In this document: positions 15,434-22,088 of the stretch, in pieces | How positions within the stretch are numbered: position 1 is the first letter of the stretch | Layout: each line of letters opens with the position of its first letter | Origin: Lentisphaerota bacterium | GTDB taxonomy: Bacteria; Verrucomicrobiota; Lentisphaeria; Victivallales; Victivallaceae | Assembly (NCBI GenBank): GCA_015061695.1 | Contig: SUWA01000002.1 | Location: 1-64,000, forward strand | DNA length: 64,000 nucleotides | Direction: 5' to 3' | Translations under genes and position numbers: made by a program | The notes under the pieces: generated by a model | The model's database searches: none | What the model was told of the DNA's origin: nothing | Seen by the model: only the letters and a program-made list of their open reading frames with translations

Positions 15434-17653
15434 TTGATAATGAACAAGTCGAAGAACACCGTGGTTACTGACCCGGTATGCAAGATGCAGTTTCCCGTCG
15501 GACGATCCGCTGCGCAGTATGAATATAACTCAACGATATATTATTTTTGCAATCCGCGCTGCAAAGAACGTTTTGCCGCAGATCCGGAACTTTATTTGAA
15601 AAGTACATCCCCTGCGCCGGGTTGCTGCTGTTGCTCTGAAGCATTTGAAGATGATCAAAACAAAATCGACCGCCGCTTGCGTTCGCTGCGTAACGGATTT
15701 ATTATCAGCGCAGTTATAACGGTGCTGTTGGCTGGCTTGGAGCATTGCAGTTATCTTGATTTATATCTGCGGCAGAATCTGCAATGGTTATTGGCGTCGC
15801 TGGCGGTATTCGGTGCCGGAGGATTTCTTTTAAAAAACGGAATCAAATCGCTTTCCGGGTTCAGATTCAACATGTTTACCCTGATAAGCATGGGTATCAT
15901 GACAGCTTACATCTTCAGTGTTTACGCTTTATTTTTCGGTTTTACACTGCCTGAATCGCTGCTGAACGGCAATGGATTGGCCAAACTGCACTTTGTACCG
16001 GCAGCCATGATCACGACTTTGGTGATTTTGGGGCAATACCTGGAAAGCCGGGCCAGTCGCGGAGCCAGTCGGGCTATCAGAGCATTGATGGAGTTGGTTC
16101 CGCCGACTGCTCACCGGATTTCAGAGTGTGGATGTGTTAAAGATGTAGCATTGGATCAGATAAAAAAGGGCGATTGCCTGAAAGTTATGCCGCATGAAAA
16201 AATTCCGGTCGATGGTGTGGTCATTGCCGGCTGCAGCAGCGTGGATGAGTCAATGCTTTCCGGCGAAGCACTGCCGATCGCCAAACAGCCCGGCGACCGC
16301 TTGGCAGCCGGCACGGAAAATGGCGAAAGTGTACTGGAAATGCGCTCCGAAGCGGTCGGACGCGATACGCTGCTGGGGCAAATCGTGGATCTGGTCAGGG
16401 CGGCGCGTAATACCAGGTTGCCGATCCAGAAACTGGCGGATAAAGTTTCGGCAATTTTTGTGCCAACGGTACTGGCGATCGCGGTTGCGGCGCTGCTGAT
16501 CTGGGGGTTAGCGGTAAAAGATTGGTCGATGGCATTGGGCTGTTTTACCTCCGTATTGCTGGCGGCGTGCCCGTGCGCGTTGGGCTTGGCGGCACCGCTG
16601 GCGGTAATGGTGGGGATCGGACGCGGCGCCCGCTGCGGTATATTGATAAAAAATGCTTCAACATTGGAAGATTTGCGCAAAGTAGATATCATAATGTTGG
16701 ATAAAACCGGTACTTTGACCGAAAATAAGCCTGAAATCACCGAAGTCTATATCGATGATGCTATTGGCGAAAAAGAGTTTTATCAAACGCTGCTGGCATT
16801 GGAGCAAAACAGTCTGCATCCGCTGGCTCATGCAGTAAAAAATATGCCGCAAGCGGCTCAATTCAATCATGATCTGCCACCGGTCGAAAAATTTATTTCG
16901 ATTCCGGGGCAGGGGGTGAAAGGTGTTTGCAACAACGCTTTTTTCCTGTTGGGCAGTCCGGAATTCATGCGGCAAAATCAACTGGATCTTCAAAGTTTCC
17001 TGAACAGGATCAAAGTCGATATTACTGCGCTTGAACGCAGTGTGATCATGCTTGGATGCGATAAAAAACTTTTGGGGATGCTGGTTGCCTCTGACCGCAT
17101 CCGGCCGGACGCCGCCGGCGTGATTGCTGAAATCAAACAGCACCGGATCGAACCGATCCTGTTGAGCGGAGATAATCCAACTGCCGTCAAAAGCGTGGCG
17201 CTTAAATTAGGGATCGAAGAATTCTACGGCGCGTTATCTCCGCAGCAAAAACTGGAAAAAGTCAAAGCCATGCAAGCCTTCGGGCGCCGGGTGGCCATGG
17301 TGGGCGACGGGGTCAACGATGCCGCAGCACTGGCGGCCGCCGAAGTCGGGATCGCCATGGGCAGCGGTACGGATGCGGCATTGGAAAACGCCGGTGTAAC
17401 TCTGTTGGCCGGCAATATCGGCAAATTGGGCGCGCTGCTGCACTTGAGCCGTGCAGTTAACGAAACGATCAAGGTCAATTTATACTTGGCATTTGCTTAC
17501 AACATGCTGCTGATACCGTTTGCCGCCGGGGCTTTTTACTCGCTGGTACACTTTCAGATTACCCCGGCGGTGAGTGCGATCGCCATGTCGGGATCATGTT
17601 TGTTGGTGGTGAGTAATTCTTTGCGGTTGTGGAATTTAAAGCTCAATAAGTAA
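15434..17653 (+). CDS. copA: Copper-type heavy-metal translocating P-type ATPase with N-terminal YHS domain
   Basis: VTDPVCKMQF...YYFCNPRCKERF (YHS), CPCALGLAAPLA, DKTGTLTEN, MVGDGVNDAAAL. Confidence 0.9.
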   Translation: MIMNKSKNTVVTDPVCKMQFPVGRSAAQYEYNSTIYYFCNPRCKERFAADPELYLKSTSPAPGCCCCSEAFEDDQNKIDRRLRSLRNGFIISAVITVLLAGLEHCSYLDLYLRQNLQWLLASLAVFGAGGFLLKNGIKSLSGFRFNMFTLISMGIMTAYIFSVYALFFGFTLPESLLNGNGLAKLHFVPAAMITTLVILGQYLESRASRGASRAIRALMELVPPTAHRISECGCVKDVALDQIKKGDCLKVMPHEKIPVDGVVIAGCSSVDESMLSGEALPIAKQPGDRLAAGTENGESVLEMRSEAVGRDTLLGQIVDLVRAARNTRLPIQKLADKVSAIFVPTVLAIAVAALLIWGLAVKDWSMALGCFTSVLLAACPCALGLAAPLAVMVGIGRGARCGILIKNASTLEDLRKVDIIMLDKTGTLTENKPEITEVYIDDAIGEKEFYQTLLALEQNSLHPLAHAVKNMPQAAQFNHDLPPVEKFISIPGQGVKGVCNNAFFLLGSPEFMRQNQLDLQSFLNRIKVDITALERSVIMLGCDKKLLGMLVASDRIRPDAAGVIAEIKQHRIEPILLSGDNPTAVKSVALKLGIEEFYGALSPQQKLEKVKAMQAFGRRVAMVGDGVNDAAALAAAEVGIAMGSGTDAALENAGVTLLAGNIGKLGALLHLSRAVNETIKVNLYLAFAYNMLLIPFAAGAFYSLVHFQITPAVSAIAMSGSCLLVVSNSLRLWNLKLNK

Positions 17654-17657
17654 AAAA

Positions 17658-17687
17658 CGGTACAGCAAAAATTGCTTTGCTGTACCG
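17658..17687. terminator. Hairpin between copA and the capsid cassette
   Basis: CGGTACAGCAAA...TTTGCTGTACCG inverted repeat. Confidence 0.55.
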
Positions 17688-17721
17688 ATAACAACAACAT
17701 AAATGAGCGTATGTCAAAAAC

Positions 17722-18135
17722 TCATCCGCGGTTTATTTTGATTTCGCCGTAGCCGGGCAAACGGGAGAGAAATAATTCACAACGCGGAGCCAATACTCCA
17801 CTTGCCGCAACGCCCACGGACTCCGACTCGACAGAGCGTTCGTAATACTCCCGCTTGCCGATGCCATCGATGGATTCGCTTTTAAGTGCGCCATGCGCTG
17901 TGCTTTCCCCCGAACGGCAATTTTCCTGCAATGCCAGATAGAGCGCCTGTTCGCAAACGGCGCAAAACACCAGCAGGTCGCCAATATCCAGCGTGGGAGT
18001 ATTCAATGCCAATTTGATGTCATCTTCCGCCATTTTTACAGCTGCACTTTGAGTGTCAGCCGGCAAATTCTGCCAATGACGCCGTTGCAAATGGCATTGA
18101 AAATACTCTTGAACCTGAATCATATTGCTTTGCAT
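17722..18135 (-). CDS. Small phage head-completion/adaptor-like protein
   Basis: Position directly after the MCP gene; N-terminal pattern VQEYFQCHLQRRHWQNLPADTQSAAVKMAEDDIKLAL resembles phage head adaptors. Confidence 0.4.
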   Translation of the reverse strand: MQSNMIQVQEYFQCHLQRRHWQNLPADTQSAAVKMAEDDIKLALNTPTLDIGDLLVFCAVCEQALYLALQENCRSGESTAHGALKSESIDGIGKREYYERSVESESVGVAASGVLAPRCELFLSRLPGYGEIKINRG

Positions 18136-18222
18136 AAAATATACTCCTCGTTTTTGCAGAACCTCCGGAATGGGGTAATGGAGGCAGATGATCCCATTCC
18201 GGAGGTTTATGCAAAGTCAGTT

Positions 18223-19374
18223 TTAATTGGCGTTTTTCAACTGCTTGATCGCTTCGGCACTGTTCAGAACATTGTGGATCCGGCACAGACGCTGACGGGC
18301 ATTTTTAAACTCAAAAGTAAGTTCCCCAAGCGCCATACGTTTGACGCCGTCAAAGCCCTGCGGCGTAGCGTCCACATCGGTAATACTGCGGCCTTTCAAG
18401 CTGGCCAGCCCCAAACCGGTGGTATCCATCACCCAAATATCGTTATCCGGCACATCCGGATCGGCCATGATGGTCATACCGCGACCGGAAATTTCGTTCA
18501 CGATCGTAGCAACGTAGGCTCCGCGGCGGTTGTCGCTGCGCAGAATCTGCAAGCTGGGCTTGTATTCGTTGGAAAGCACGCGTGCCTGACCGGGACTGCA
18601 CAAGATCTGCATCGGTTCGCCGCCTTCGGAAAGAATATTCTGGGCCGCGTCGTTGATCATAAAACTGTCCAACGCCAGATTGGCTCCATCAATACTCATG
18701 CAATCTTCGCCGGCGGCAAAACAATACAGACCGCCGGCTTCGCCGCGCACGCCGGATGTCGGTTCACGCCGCACGCCGAAAAGCGCCACCCGGTTGAGAT
18801 CGCGGGCCAGTTCCCCCAAAGCAAAGGCGGTCTGACGGTTGAGCTGGTTATCCACCGAACCGTAAACATTGATCGCCAGCGCGGTGCCGGTAAGCACAAT
18901 ATCTTTGCGGAAGATCTGCATGTAGTTGTAGTTTACACCGCTGGCGTGGCTGGTTTCTTCGCCATCGCCATTGACCGAACCTTCCGCCATGGGGCTGCTG
19001 ACGATATTCATAATTGCGCCGTTATCCGGCATGAGCGTATCCGAACCGTTGGCACCGGCCAGTTCCAAAGCAAAACTGCCGCTGTTGACTGCAGTTACCC
19101 GGAACAAGGCCGGATCGTTTTTGACCACCAGCAAAGTACCGACTTTAAGTTTGCTGATATCTTCAGCTGCCGCACTCATCTGATTGCCGGATACCCCGGT
19201 AACGGTTACATTGCGGCCTTCGATCTGATCTTCGAGCCACTCATGTTTCTGCGCGGTGCCATCCTGCACGGTTTTGAAGTTGGAAATGAAACGCGGTTCG
19301 TCCTTTACCACCGACGAAAGCACGTCCGAAAGATCACGTTTTTTATTGGCAAAACTGTAAGCATAAATAGTCAT
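18223..19374 (-). CDS. Phage major capsid protein (SU10/DUF5309-like)
   Basis: DLSDVLSSVVKDEPRFISNFKTV N-terminus, RKDIVLTGTALA, C-terminal ELTFEFKNARQRLCRIHNV; intact 383 aa. Confidence 0.8.
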   Translation of the reverse strand: MTIYAYSFANKKRDLSDVLSSVVKDEPRFISNFKTVQDGTAQKHEWLEDQIEGRNVTVTGVSGNQMSAAAEDISKLKVGTLLVVKNDPALFRVTAVNSGSFALELAGANGSDTLMPDNGAIMNIVSSPMAEGSVNGDGEETSHASGVNYNYMQIFRKDIVLTGTALAINVYGSVDNQLNRQTAFALGELARDLNRVALFGVRREPTSGVRGEAGGLYCFAAGEDCMSIDGANLALDSFMINDAAQNILSEGGEPMQILCSPGQARVLSNEYKPSLQILRSDNRRGAYVATIVNEISGRGMTIMADPDVPDNDIWVMDTTGLGLASLKGRSITDVDATPQGFDGVKRMALGELTFEFKNARQRLCRIHNVLNSAEAIKQLKNAN

Positions 19375-19412
19375 ATTGATAATCCTTTTTTATTGTTTTT
19401 TGATTTGAAAAG

Positions 19413-19985
19413 TTAAAAAATTTCCGGCGCGCCGGCCAGCATTGACTCCAATGCAGCCATCCGGTTGGCGCCGTGCGGCAGCTCCGAAACTCCATTGTGC
19501 AAATTAGTTCCGGGGCGACTGCCGGAACCCGGCTTGAGCGGCAGCGAAAAATATCTGGGGTTGGCAGCCTTGAACTCCTGCAGAAAACGGGTTGCACCGG
19601 TATTATCATCCGGATCGATCTGGTGTTTTTGAAGGAGAAAATCCAAAAACTCCACATCATTGAACCCGCTGCCGGAGGCCAGCTTCTGCAGCTGATTGCT
19701 CCGCTGCAAAAGCTTAAGCTCGCCGTGAAGCTGATCGCGCTGCGCCGCAGTTGATTGCAATTCGCGCCGGATCTGCTCCGTTCCGGAAAGTGTTTCCTGG
19801 GTCAGAATACCGCGCAGACTCTTTTTGAGTTCGGCTAATTCCTGCTGCAAGGCCGCCAGTTCAACCGGTGGGTTTTCCGGTTCCGGCGACGGACTGCCAG
19901 GTGATCCCGGAATGTTCTCCGGGGGAGGGGGAGATGCTGCCTTGTCTGACAAAGCAGCAACATCGTTGAATGTTTCATCAACCAT
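19413..19985 (-). CDS. Phage scaffold-like protein
   Basis: Pro-rich N-terminus, coiled-coil centre, FLQEFKAANPRYF near C-terminus, immediately upstream of MCP. Confidence 0.55.
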   Translation of the reverse strand: MVDETFNDVAALSDKAASPPPPENIPGSPGSPSPEPENPPVELAALQQELAELKKSLRGILTQETLSGTEQIRRELQSTAAQRDQLHGELKLLQRSNQLQKLASGSGFNDVEFLDFLLQKHQIDPDDNTGATRFLQEFKAANPRYFSLPLKPGSGSRPGTNLHNGVSELPHGANRMAALESMLAGAPEIF

Positions 19986-20100
19986 AAAAACTCCTGTATG
20001 AATAAGTTTTGAAACGTCTTACTTCATTGCCGGATGCAGTGAAAGCTGCGTTTCGTTATCCATAGAGTTTTTTGTCAACAAAACCCTTTTTACAAGCACA

Positions 20101-20134
20101 AAAAAAGCCCGCAGACTGCAATGTCCCGGGCTTG
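20101..20134 (-). terminator. Terminator after leuD
   Basis: AAGCCCG...CGGGCTTTTTTT on minus strand. Confidence 0.75.
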
Positions 20135-20150: not shown

Positions 20151-20675
20151 TCAGTATTTTTTGTCGGCGTAAGCAACCCAGCCGCCGGCTTTGACCAACT
20201 CCAGGTCAAAGGGGGCGATCTCAAACTTATACACCTTGCTGGTCTGATCGTTGGTGATCGTAAATTCACATTTATCAAGATCGGTCTTGCACTCCGCCGG
20301 AGTTCCGGCAAAGGTGGCAAAAATATCGTCGATCTGTTCAGAACTCAACGAAATAGCCGCCAGACCGCAGTTGAACATATTCTGACGGAAAATACGGGCA
20401 AAGTTGACCGCAATCACCAGATTGATATTGTTGCACTCCAACACCCAGGGGGCATGTTCGCGCGAAGAACCGCACCCAAAGTTGGCCCGCGTTACGATGA
20501 CCGCTTTGCCGTCAATATCTTTTTTAGGATCAAAACCGGGCAGGGAAAGATCTTCCAGGCAGTACGGTTTGAGCGCAGCCTTGGTCAGCTCGGTCAAATA
20601 TTTAGCCGGAATGATCTCGTCGGTATTGATATCGGAACGGTCAAGAAACAGGATTTTTCCATTAAAATTTTTCAT
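20151..20675 (-). CDS. leuD: 3-isopropylmalate dehydratase-type small subunit
   Basis: DRSDINTDEIIPAKYL, GCGSSREHAPW. Confidence 0.9.
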   Translation of the reverse strand: MKNFNGKILFLDRSDINTDEIIPAKYLTELTKAALKPYCLEDLSLPGFDPKKDIDGKAVIVTRANFGCGSSREHAPWVLECNNINLVIAVNFARIFRQNMFNCGLAAISLSSEQIDDIFATFAGTPAECKTDLDKCEFTITNDQTSKVYKFEIAPFDLELVKAGGWVAYADKKY

Positions 20676-20702: not shown

Positions 20703-21989
20703 TCAACCTTTGTAGAGCGGAGAGTTGGTAATAACCCCGGCAATGGCTGTAGCCGCCGCCGTAGCCGGACTCATCAGGTGTACCATACCGCCTTTGCCCA
20801 TACGGCCATTGAAGTTGCGGTTAGTGGTGGAAGCACAAACTTCTCCATTGGCCAAAACGCCGTTGCTCATGCCCAGACAAGCTCCGCAAGTGGGGTTGGT
20901 AACACAGAACCCGGCTTCCATAAAGATTTCGATCAAACCTTCTTTGAGCGCCTGCTGATAGATCAGCGGAGTGGCGGGCGACACTACCGCACGCACATTG
21001 TCGCTGATGCGTTTGCCTTTGAGAATACTGGCGGCAATGCGCAAGTCTTCCAGACGGCCGTTGGTGCAGCTGCCAATGTAGACCTGATCGACCGGCGTAC
21101 CGGTCATTTCGCGCACGCTTTTGACCTGATCGGGTTTGTAGTTGAACGTTACCATCGGTTCCAGCGTTGTTACATCAAAATCGATGACTTTGGCGTATTT
21201 TGCATCGGCATCGGGCAGGAACTTGGAATATTCCGCCAGCGCAGCTTCTTTACTGGCAAATTCATCCTGAATAAAGGGCCAGAGGTAATCCACCGTAACC
21301 ATATCCGGATAGCAGATACCGCAGGTGCCGCCGGCTTCGATCGCCATGTTGCAAAGGGTCATACGGGCATCCATCTTCATGGCCGATACAGTTTCGCCGG
21401 CAAATTCAATAACGTGGTCAGTTGCACCATTGACGGTCAAAGTTTTGATGACAGCAAGAATAACATCTTTGGCATAAACACCTTCCGGCAGAGTTCCGGT
21501 AATGTTTACTTTGATCGTTTCCGGCTCGCGCATAGTGCATACGCCTTTGAGAATGCCGACTTCGAGGTCGGTAGTACCAACGCCGGCAGCAAACGCGCCG
21601 AATGCACCATGAGTACAAGTGTGGGAGTCCCCCATGATGATCGTATATCCGGGGCGGACAAAACCCTTTTCCGGGAAGATCGCGTGGCAAACCCCATTGC
21701 GCCCGACATCAAAAAAGTCTTTGATCCCGTGGCGGCGGGCCCAATCGCGCATAGTCTTGCCCTGTTCGGCCGTCTTGGAGTCTTTAGCCGGAGTAACGTG
21801 GTCGATCACCGCCTTGATTTTGGTGGGATCAAAAACCCGGTCTTTACCGATAGCAACCAGATCATTGATAGCGATCGGTGTGGTGATTTCGTGACAGAAA
21901 ACGCGATCCAGACTCAATACGGCCACGCCGGGGGCAGGGGAGTCGATGCGGTGCGCGTCAAAAATCTTTTGAGCAGCAGTTTTACCCAT
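20703..21989 (-). CDS. leuC: 3-isopropylmalate dehydratase-type large subunit
   Basis: MGKTAAQKIFDAH, GDSHTCTHGAFGAFA, GSCTNGRLEDL; start corrected to 21989. Confidence 0.92.
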   Translation of the reverse strand: MGKTAAQKIFDAHRIDSPAPGVAVLSLDRVFCHEITTPIAINDLVAIGKDRVFDPTKIKAVIDHVTPAKDSKTAEQGKTMRDWARRHGIKDFFDVGRNGVCHAIFPEKGFVRPGYTIIMGDSHTCTHGAFGAFAAGVGTTDLEVGILKGVCTMREPETIKVNITGTLPEGVYAKDVILAVIKTLTVNGATDHVIEFAGETVSAMKMDARMTLCNMAIEAGGTCGICYPDMVTVDYLWPFIQDEFASKEAALAEYSKFLPDADAKYAKVIDFDVTTLEPMVTFNYKPDQVKSVREMTGTPVDQVYIGSCTNGRLEDLRIAASILKGKRISDNVRAVVSPATPLIYQQALKEGLIEIFMEAGFCVTNPTCGACLGMSNGVLANGEVCASTTNRNFNGRMGKGGMVHLMSPATAAATAIAGVITNSPLYKG

Positions 21990-22088
21990 AAAATATTCTC
22001 CTTGAAATAAAAACAGCGTCCCGGAGTCGCTCCGGAACAAATTAAAAAACAATGCTGAATGGTAATTTAGCGCAACTTGTTATTTTTG

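Follow-up and report, generated by a model that had tools for sequence, protein, structure and literature searches.

The three-gene capsid cassette between leuD and copA in the 64-kb stretch of DNA from a gut bacterium of the Lentisphaerota analysed here (hereafter the window) is probably the capsid operon of a domesticated phage gene set that is dispersed over the chromosome and constitutes a gene-transfer-agent (GTA)-like system of the Victivallaceae. A sequence-only reading had considered a domesticated protein shell, one locus of a split GTA or satellite, or a remnant whose capsid genes are under selection. The split-GTA option is now strongly supported, in that genes for terminase, portal, TerS, and tail proteins from the same lineage are located elsewhere in the genomes and are connected by co-occurrence, inheritance, and, for most of them, an upstream element, whereas the stand-alone shell and the satellite found no support.

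The capsid cassette and its flanks

The window is contig C125 of genome G000 (2.65 Mb, 133 contigs, 84.8% complete). As first read, the cassette consists of three intact, co-directional minus-strand ORFs and is bounded by a hairpin on each side; the one facing leuD was recognised by eye, because its loop is too long for the terminator scan. The features are as follows.

15434..17653, plus strand: copA-like ATPase, cassette flank; conserved in 5/5 species of the genus
17658..17687, minus strand: intrinsic terminator-like hairpin in the gap between the adaptor gene and copA, from the terminator scan
17722..18135, minus strand: head-tail (neck) adaptor-like protein, 137 aa, from a weak phrog_541 match and fold matches of its model
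18223..19374, minus strand: major capsid protein (MCP) of SU10/HK97 fold, 383 aa, from PF17236, an AlphaFold model, and dN/dS
19413..19985, minus strand: scaffolding protein, 190 aa, first gene of the cassette, from PF06810 and phrog_194 matches
20070..20079, minus strand: element GTTGACAAAA upstream of the scaffold gene, common to the TerL, portal, TerS, and putative tail-protein units
20105..20133, minus strand: hairpin separating leuD from the cassette (AAGCCCG...CGGGCTT and a minus-strand T run)
20151..20675, minus strand: leuD, cassette flank; conserved, with leuC, in the 4 species of the genus whose contig reaches this side
20703-22052: leuC, next after leuD

The identities originally proposed for the three products agree with Pfam and PHROGs, strongly for the MCP (SU10_MCP PF17236, E 4e-48; phrog_1328, major head protein, E 5e-35), less so for the scaffold (phrog_194, E 5e-6; PF06810 Phage_scaffold, E 1.6e-6, which does not reach Pfam's curated cut-off), and weakly for the adaptor-like protein (head-tail adaptor phrog_541, E 0.03). 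The AlphaFold model of the MCP, with a modest pLDDT of 70, matches the HK97-fold capsids VP1, Pa223, and SU10 (best E 2.9e-14), the structural result that the reading had called for. The top three fold matches of the adaptor model (pLDDT 84) are the T1 portal-adaptor, the XM1 neck protein, and YqbG, all weak (E 0.25–1.2). The gene order of scaffold, MCP, and adaptor is kept in about 50 related loci.

A search detected no TerL, TerS, portal, tail tube, terminator, or tape measure of the cassette's lineage elsewhere in the 64 kb, as the reading had also noted for terminase, portal, and tail genes. The cassette is alone within the window, but "stand-alone" does not hold for the genome, where matching phage genes are present at other loci. 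With leuD and copA as flanks and the remaining set on other contigs, the locus is also not an intact prophage. Its solitary position among housekeeping genes, together with the occurrence of some encapsulins among the structural matches of the MCP model, could point to an encapsulin-type compartment made from the MCP independently of other phage genes. We consider this highly improbable: phage capsids, rather than encapsulins, give the best fold matches, the scaffold and adaptor genes are kept alongside, and the MCP is inherited together with portal and TerL in 30/30 carrier genomes. It is the retention of the portal and of a catalytically intact TerL that leaves a protein shell standing alone without support.

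Scattered units and their common upstream element

By searching G000 with profiles built from relatives, the terminase and portal genes that the reading had proposed to look for were both found on other contigs, along with further members of the set.

C124:8032-9258: TerL (large terminase), single copy; Terminase_6N/6C, phrog_979
C76:10026-11393: portal, single copy; phrog_145
C76, directly after the portal gene: short neck-like gene
C114:12156-12524: TerS (small terminase), single copy; phrog_309
C109:10912-11382: Zn-finger/HTH protein, regulator candidate
C80: putative tail protein, found via the upstream-element search

The phage set of this genome occupies at least six separate loci. Across the window's genus, head and packaging genes are divided among the cassette, the portal unit, TerL, and TerS, and host neighbours are conserved around the loci of TerL, portal, TerS, and the HTH protein. 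The genomes compared are mostly fragmented MAGs; in two near-closed genomes, six units each are located at 739, 1276, 1604, 1774, 1786, and 1974 kb (strain zth2, G014, complete) and at 569, 1858, 2242, 2585, 2779, and 3060 kb (G022), with inter-locus distances of >1 Mb and up to 2.5 Mb, a spacing that one packaged piece of DNA would hardly be expected to span. The regulator candidate has weak HTH matches only in Pfam and PHROGs, and its assignment as an activator is for this reason a guess. A second, different Zn-finger/HTH family copy is present in G000 at C58:25458-25931 (L327).

Upstream alignment within the genus revealed that TTGACAAAA precedes the scaffold, TerL, portal, and TerS genes. 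As a family-wide element this exact 9-mer was rejected, because it fails in most other genera, while the shorter core RTTGAC[AG] holds. Scored as the core within 130 bp upstream, the element is present in 15/15 leaders of the set and 6/121 control genes of the window's genus, and in 34/50 leaders and 16/342 controls of the other genera; the corresponding p values (1e-15 and 1e-24, respectively) overstate the difference, because the core was picked after viewing the leaders of both groups and related species are non-independent. ORF starts were picked mechanically. For the cassette's element, a promoter scan gave no canonical -10, and such a -10 at 16–18 bp from the element is rare in general (2/15 in the genus and 2/34 in the other genera). 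Nor is the element exclusive to phage units, with 57 sites in the genome versus 32 for a reversed control. Since it is also found before the late genes in 6/8 prophage leaders, and in 5/13 compact clusters (see below), RTTGAC[AG] may represent an ancestral phage late promoter. The scattered units are apparently co-regulated.

A search for ORFs led by the motif, which covered two congeners and, for G000, most of the listed sites, yielded one convincing family, that of the C80 protein, in all three genomes (L498, L412, and L434; 49–53% identical), whose counterparts in other genera adjoin TerL (L186, L173, and L171) or the tail terminator (L067). A second motif-led ORF, present in G002 (L460) and G003 (L368) and not found in G000, matches a tail-tube profile in this small set (E 7e-9 and 1e-6). 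The C80 protein, the only putative tail part of G000, received no name from Pfam or PHROGs.

Profile searches detected no tape measure in the scattered sets, and in those of the window's genus no match to the tape-measure, tube, or terminator profiles. Tube and terminator are separate genes in prophages and often a single ORF in scattered sets (298 aa in zth2), and G022 has repeated terminator domains in one 506-aa ORF; fused tube/terminator or multi-terminator ORFs of scattered-set genomes are located at L210, L222, L211, L216, and L218. Judging from what is absent, the tail of the scattered set may be reduced. A reduced tail, with no tape measure and a fused tube and terminator, and packaging genes under selection would also suit a domesticated particle that packages DNA and is maintained for something other than gene transfer, such as extracellular DNA release, nutrient export, or competitor killing; assembly and packaging would then be GTA-like, but delivery to recipients would not be the selected function. 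Homologues of the portal, neck protein, terminator, and tube are, however, kept in most intact genera, which is sensible if a DNA-delivering tail is needed, and we regard a non-transfer particle as unlikely. Any particles built by the phage set would probably be DNA-packaging and gene-transfer-agent-like.

In other lineages, the genes form a compact cluster (TerS–portal–scaffold–MCP–adaptor–HTH–TerL) between housekeeping genes, often with a divergent S24-type repressor. Compact seven-gene clusters with no tail genes nearby, in most cases accompanied by a divergent S24/CI-type repressor, are seen at L046, L056, L058, L061, L070, L071, L074, and L079. Some genomes of the family carry full prophages of this lineage (L176/L177, L181, L182, and L183). 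In the MCP tree, the copies group strongly by type (35 scattered, 20 compact), with 5 label changes versus 24 after shuffling.

Distribution, inheritance, and selection

Homologues of the MCP were found in 30/37 Victivallaceae genomes, which excludes a chance origin of the cassette; they are usually single, the main copies share 58–80% identity, and the named relatives carrying one belong to Lentisphaerota (Victivallaceae/Victivallales). The same 30 genomes carry all four of MCP, TerL, portal, and TerS, and the remaining seven (G006, G009, G015, G018, G020, G026, and G032) carry none of them, although these counts include some prophage copies in a few genomes. By genus, 14 of 19 have the set and 5 do not. 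The HTH protein is present in 26/30 carriers and 0/7 non-carriers, and the terminator-domain profile has matches in most carrier genera and likewise in 0/7 non-carriers.

The loci are syntenic within the genus, and gene trees group the copies at the genus level. Pairwise distances correlate with those of rpoB (r 0.64 for MCP, 0.53 for TerL, and 0.64 for portal; Mantel p 0.0002–0.0006), less strongly after exclusion of within-genus pairs (0.52, 0.25, and 0.55, respectively), and the distances of the three proteins correlate mutually (Mantel p 0.0002). Congruence with rpoB is partial and weakest for TerL; a few copies could have been exchanged, because related true prophages occur in some of the same genomes. 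Against four congeners, dN/dS was 0.14–0.17 for MCP, 0.10–0.20 for TerL, and 0.17–0.20 for portal, with an MCP dS of about 1 that is comparable to that of the flanking leuC, and these low ratios indicate purifying selection on the three loci. In the same comparison, synonymous sites of the scaffold and adaptor genes are near saturation, and the neck-like gene downstream of portal is fast-evolving. All 28 TerLs examined retain Walker A, Walker B, and the acidic residues of the nuclease.

Some copies depart from the intact pattern. In genus g4 (G035, G007, and G024), TerL is represented by fragments only, as several partial pieces on separate contigs, and TerS-like domains are amplified (22, 12, and 7 matches, respectively), often with two per ORF, for example at G035:C436:2226-2963. 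In Victivallis vadensis DSM 14823 (G028, L087:74-2031), the scattered MCP is cut down to its C-terminal part (approximately residues 295–380) and directly adjoins a serine recombinase ORF, with an intact adaptor gene next; the N-terminal part was not found in this genome, where portal, TerL, and TerS remain. One portal copy in G010 has a stop.

The truncated Victivallis vadensis MCP beside its recombinase gene, the stop in the G010 portal copy, and the related true prophages in several genomes (listed above) are what dispersed prophage remnants would look like if they had been kept by chance or were decaying, with no joint function. This explanation is largely refuted and has very little probability left: the frames are open in nearly all species, so that the refuting case envisaged by the reading, decaying frames in a single strain, does not apply; the relatives examined for synteny and dN/dS gave ratios well below 1; and the exact co-presence and co-absence over 37 genomes, the intact TerL motifs, and the common upstream element all speak against it. 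A satellite or parasite whose capsid genes hijack or interfere with an incoming phage would account for capsid genes outside a full phage in a family where related prophages coexist. We give it just as little credence, because no integrase or other integration gene is seen beside the units and the host itself has the packaging set, vertically inherited and at constant syntenic positions.

Relation to known systems

Few lineages are known to have GTAs, which are difficult to recognise owing to their resemblance to prophage debris; RcGTA keeps a large contiguous head-tail cluster. Under published criteria for GTAs (PMC9662315), the Victivallaceae set shows caudoviricete ancestry (MCP, scaffold, portal, TerL, and TerS match phage families), endogenisation over multiple loci (at least six in G000, six in zth2, and six in G022), and mostly vertical inheritance, as seen in genus synteny, tree grouping, and the partial congruence with rpoB. 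Like RcGTA (Rhodogtaviriformidae), it is derived from a tailed phage, vertically inherited, dispersed among several loci (R. capsulatus has five, PMC9662315), and apparently host-controlled; it differs in the splitting of head and packaging genes, in the SU10-type MCP, in the Lentisphaerota host, and in having one upstream element common to the units. Brachyspira VSH-1/BhGTA (Brachygtaviriformidae) is likewise a GTA outside Alphaproteobacteria with genes probably dispersed over loci (PMC9662315), a likeness by description, and Faecalibacterium FpGTA is a recently recognised GTA-like element of a gut bacterium, found via packaged-DNA reads, with a 10.5 kb operon and podovirus-like morphology (PMC12946183). 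The Victivallaceae system is known here from its genes; unlike FpGTA it is atomised, and it includes homologues of tube and terminator. Scattering of GTA genes, with some loci holding one or two of them, is already known (PMC11841831).

The closest complete elements are temperate siphophage-like relatives from Victivallaceae and IMG/VR (L176/L177, L183, L094, and L091), which share homologous TerS, TerL, portal, scaffold, MCP, adaptor, neck protein, terminator, and tube, and a similar upstream element before their late genes; their genes are contiguous and include a tape measure, with tube and terminator encoded separately, whereas the scattered set has no detectable tape measure. Isolated SU10/DUF5309-type phages share the family and fold of the MCP, but among the phage records listed MCP identity is ≤28%, and the closest TerLs are those of Synechococcus phages (46% identical).

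In the favored GTA-like model, the RTTGAC[AG] promoters would be turned on by an activator, for which the co-inherited Zn-finger/HTH protein (G000 C109) is a possible candidate; scaffold and MCP would build a prohead on the portal, into which TerS/TerL would package host DNA; the adaptor, the short post-portal protein, and the tube/terminator proteins would close the head and possibly form a reduced tail; and the particles would exit the cell and may carry DNA to relatives. The chances seem evenly balanced for the fuller proposal of a family-wide GTA of independent origin with almost gene-by-gene dispersal, copies of an ancestral late promoter, possibly an ancestral regulator, and a reduced tail with fused tube and terminator.

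An experimental test is possible, because the carrier zth2 (complete genome CP071032) is cultured and released hexagonal particles with polysaccharide; under this condition, filamentous, hexagonal, and icosahedral particles were reported and Caudoviricetes genomes assembled, and the sister strain WC36 gave hexagonal particles of <100 nm (PMC11361711). Those particles need not be products of the phage set of zth2. In a literature search with preprints and subscription papers outside its scope, no GTA report for Lentisphaerota was found. The set is a candidate GTA in Lentisphaerota and would represent a new, extremely dispersed GTA-like system, recognised independently of gene clustering through co-presence, co-absence, and a common upstream element. 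It shows that even genes for the core of the head can be divided into units of one gene each and yet be held together by selection.
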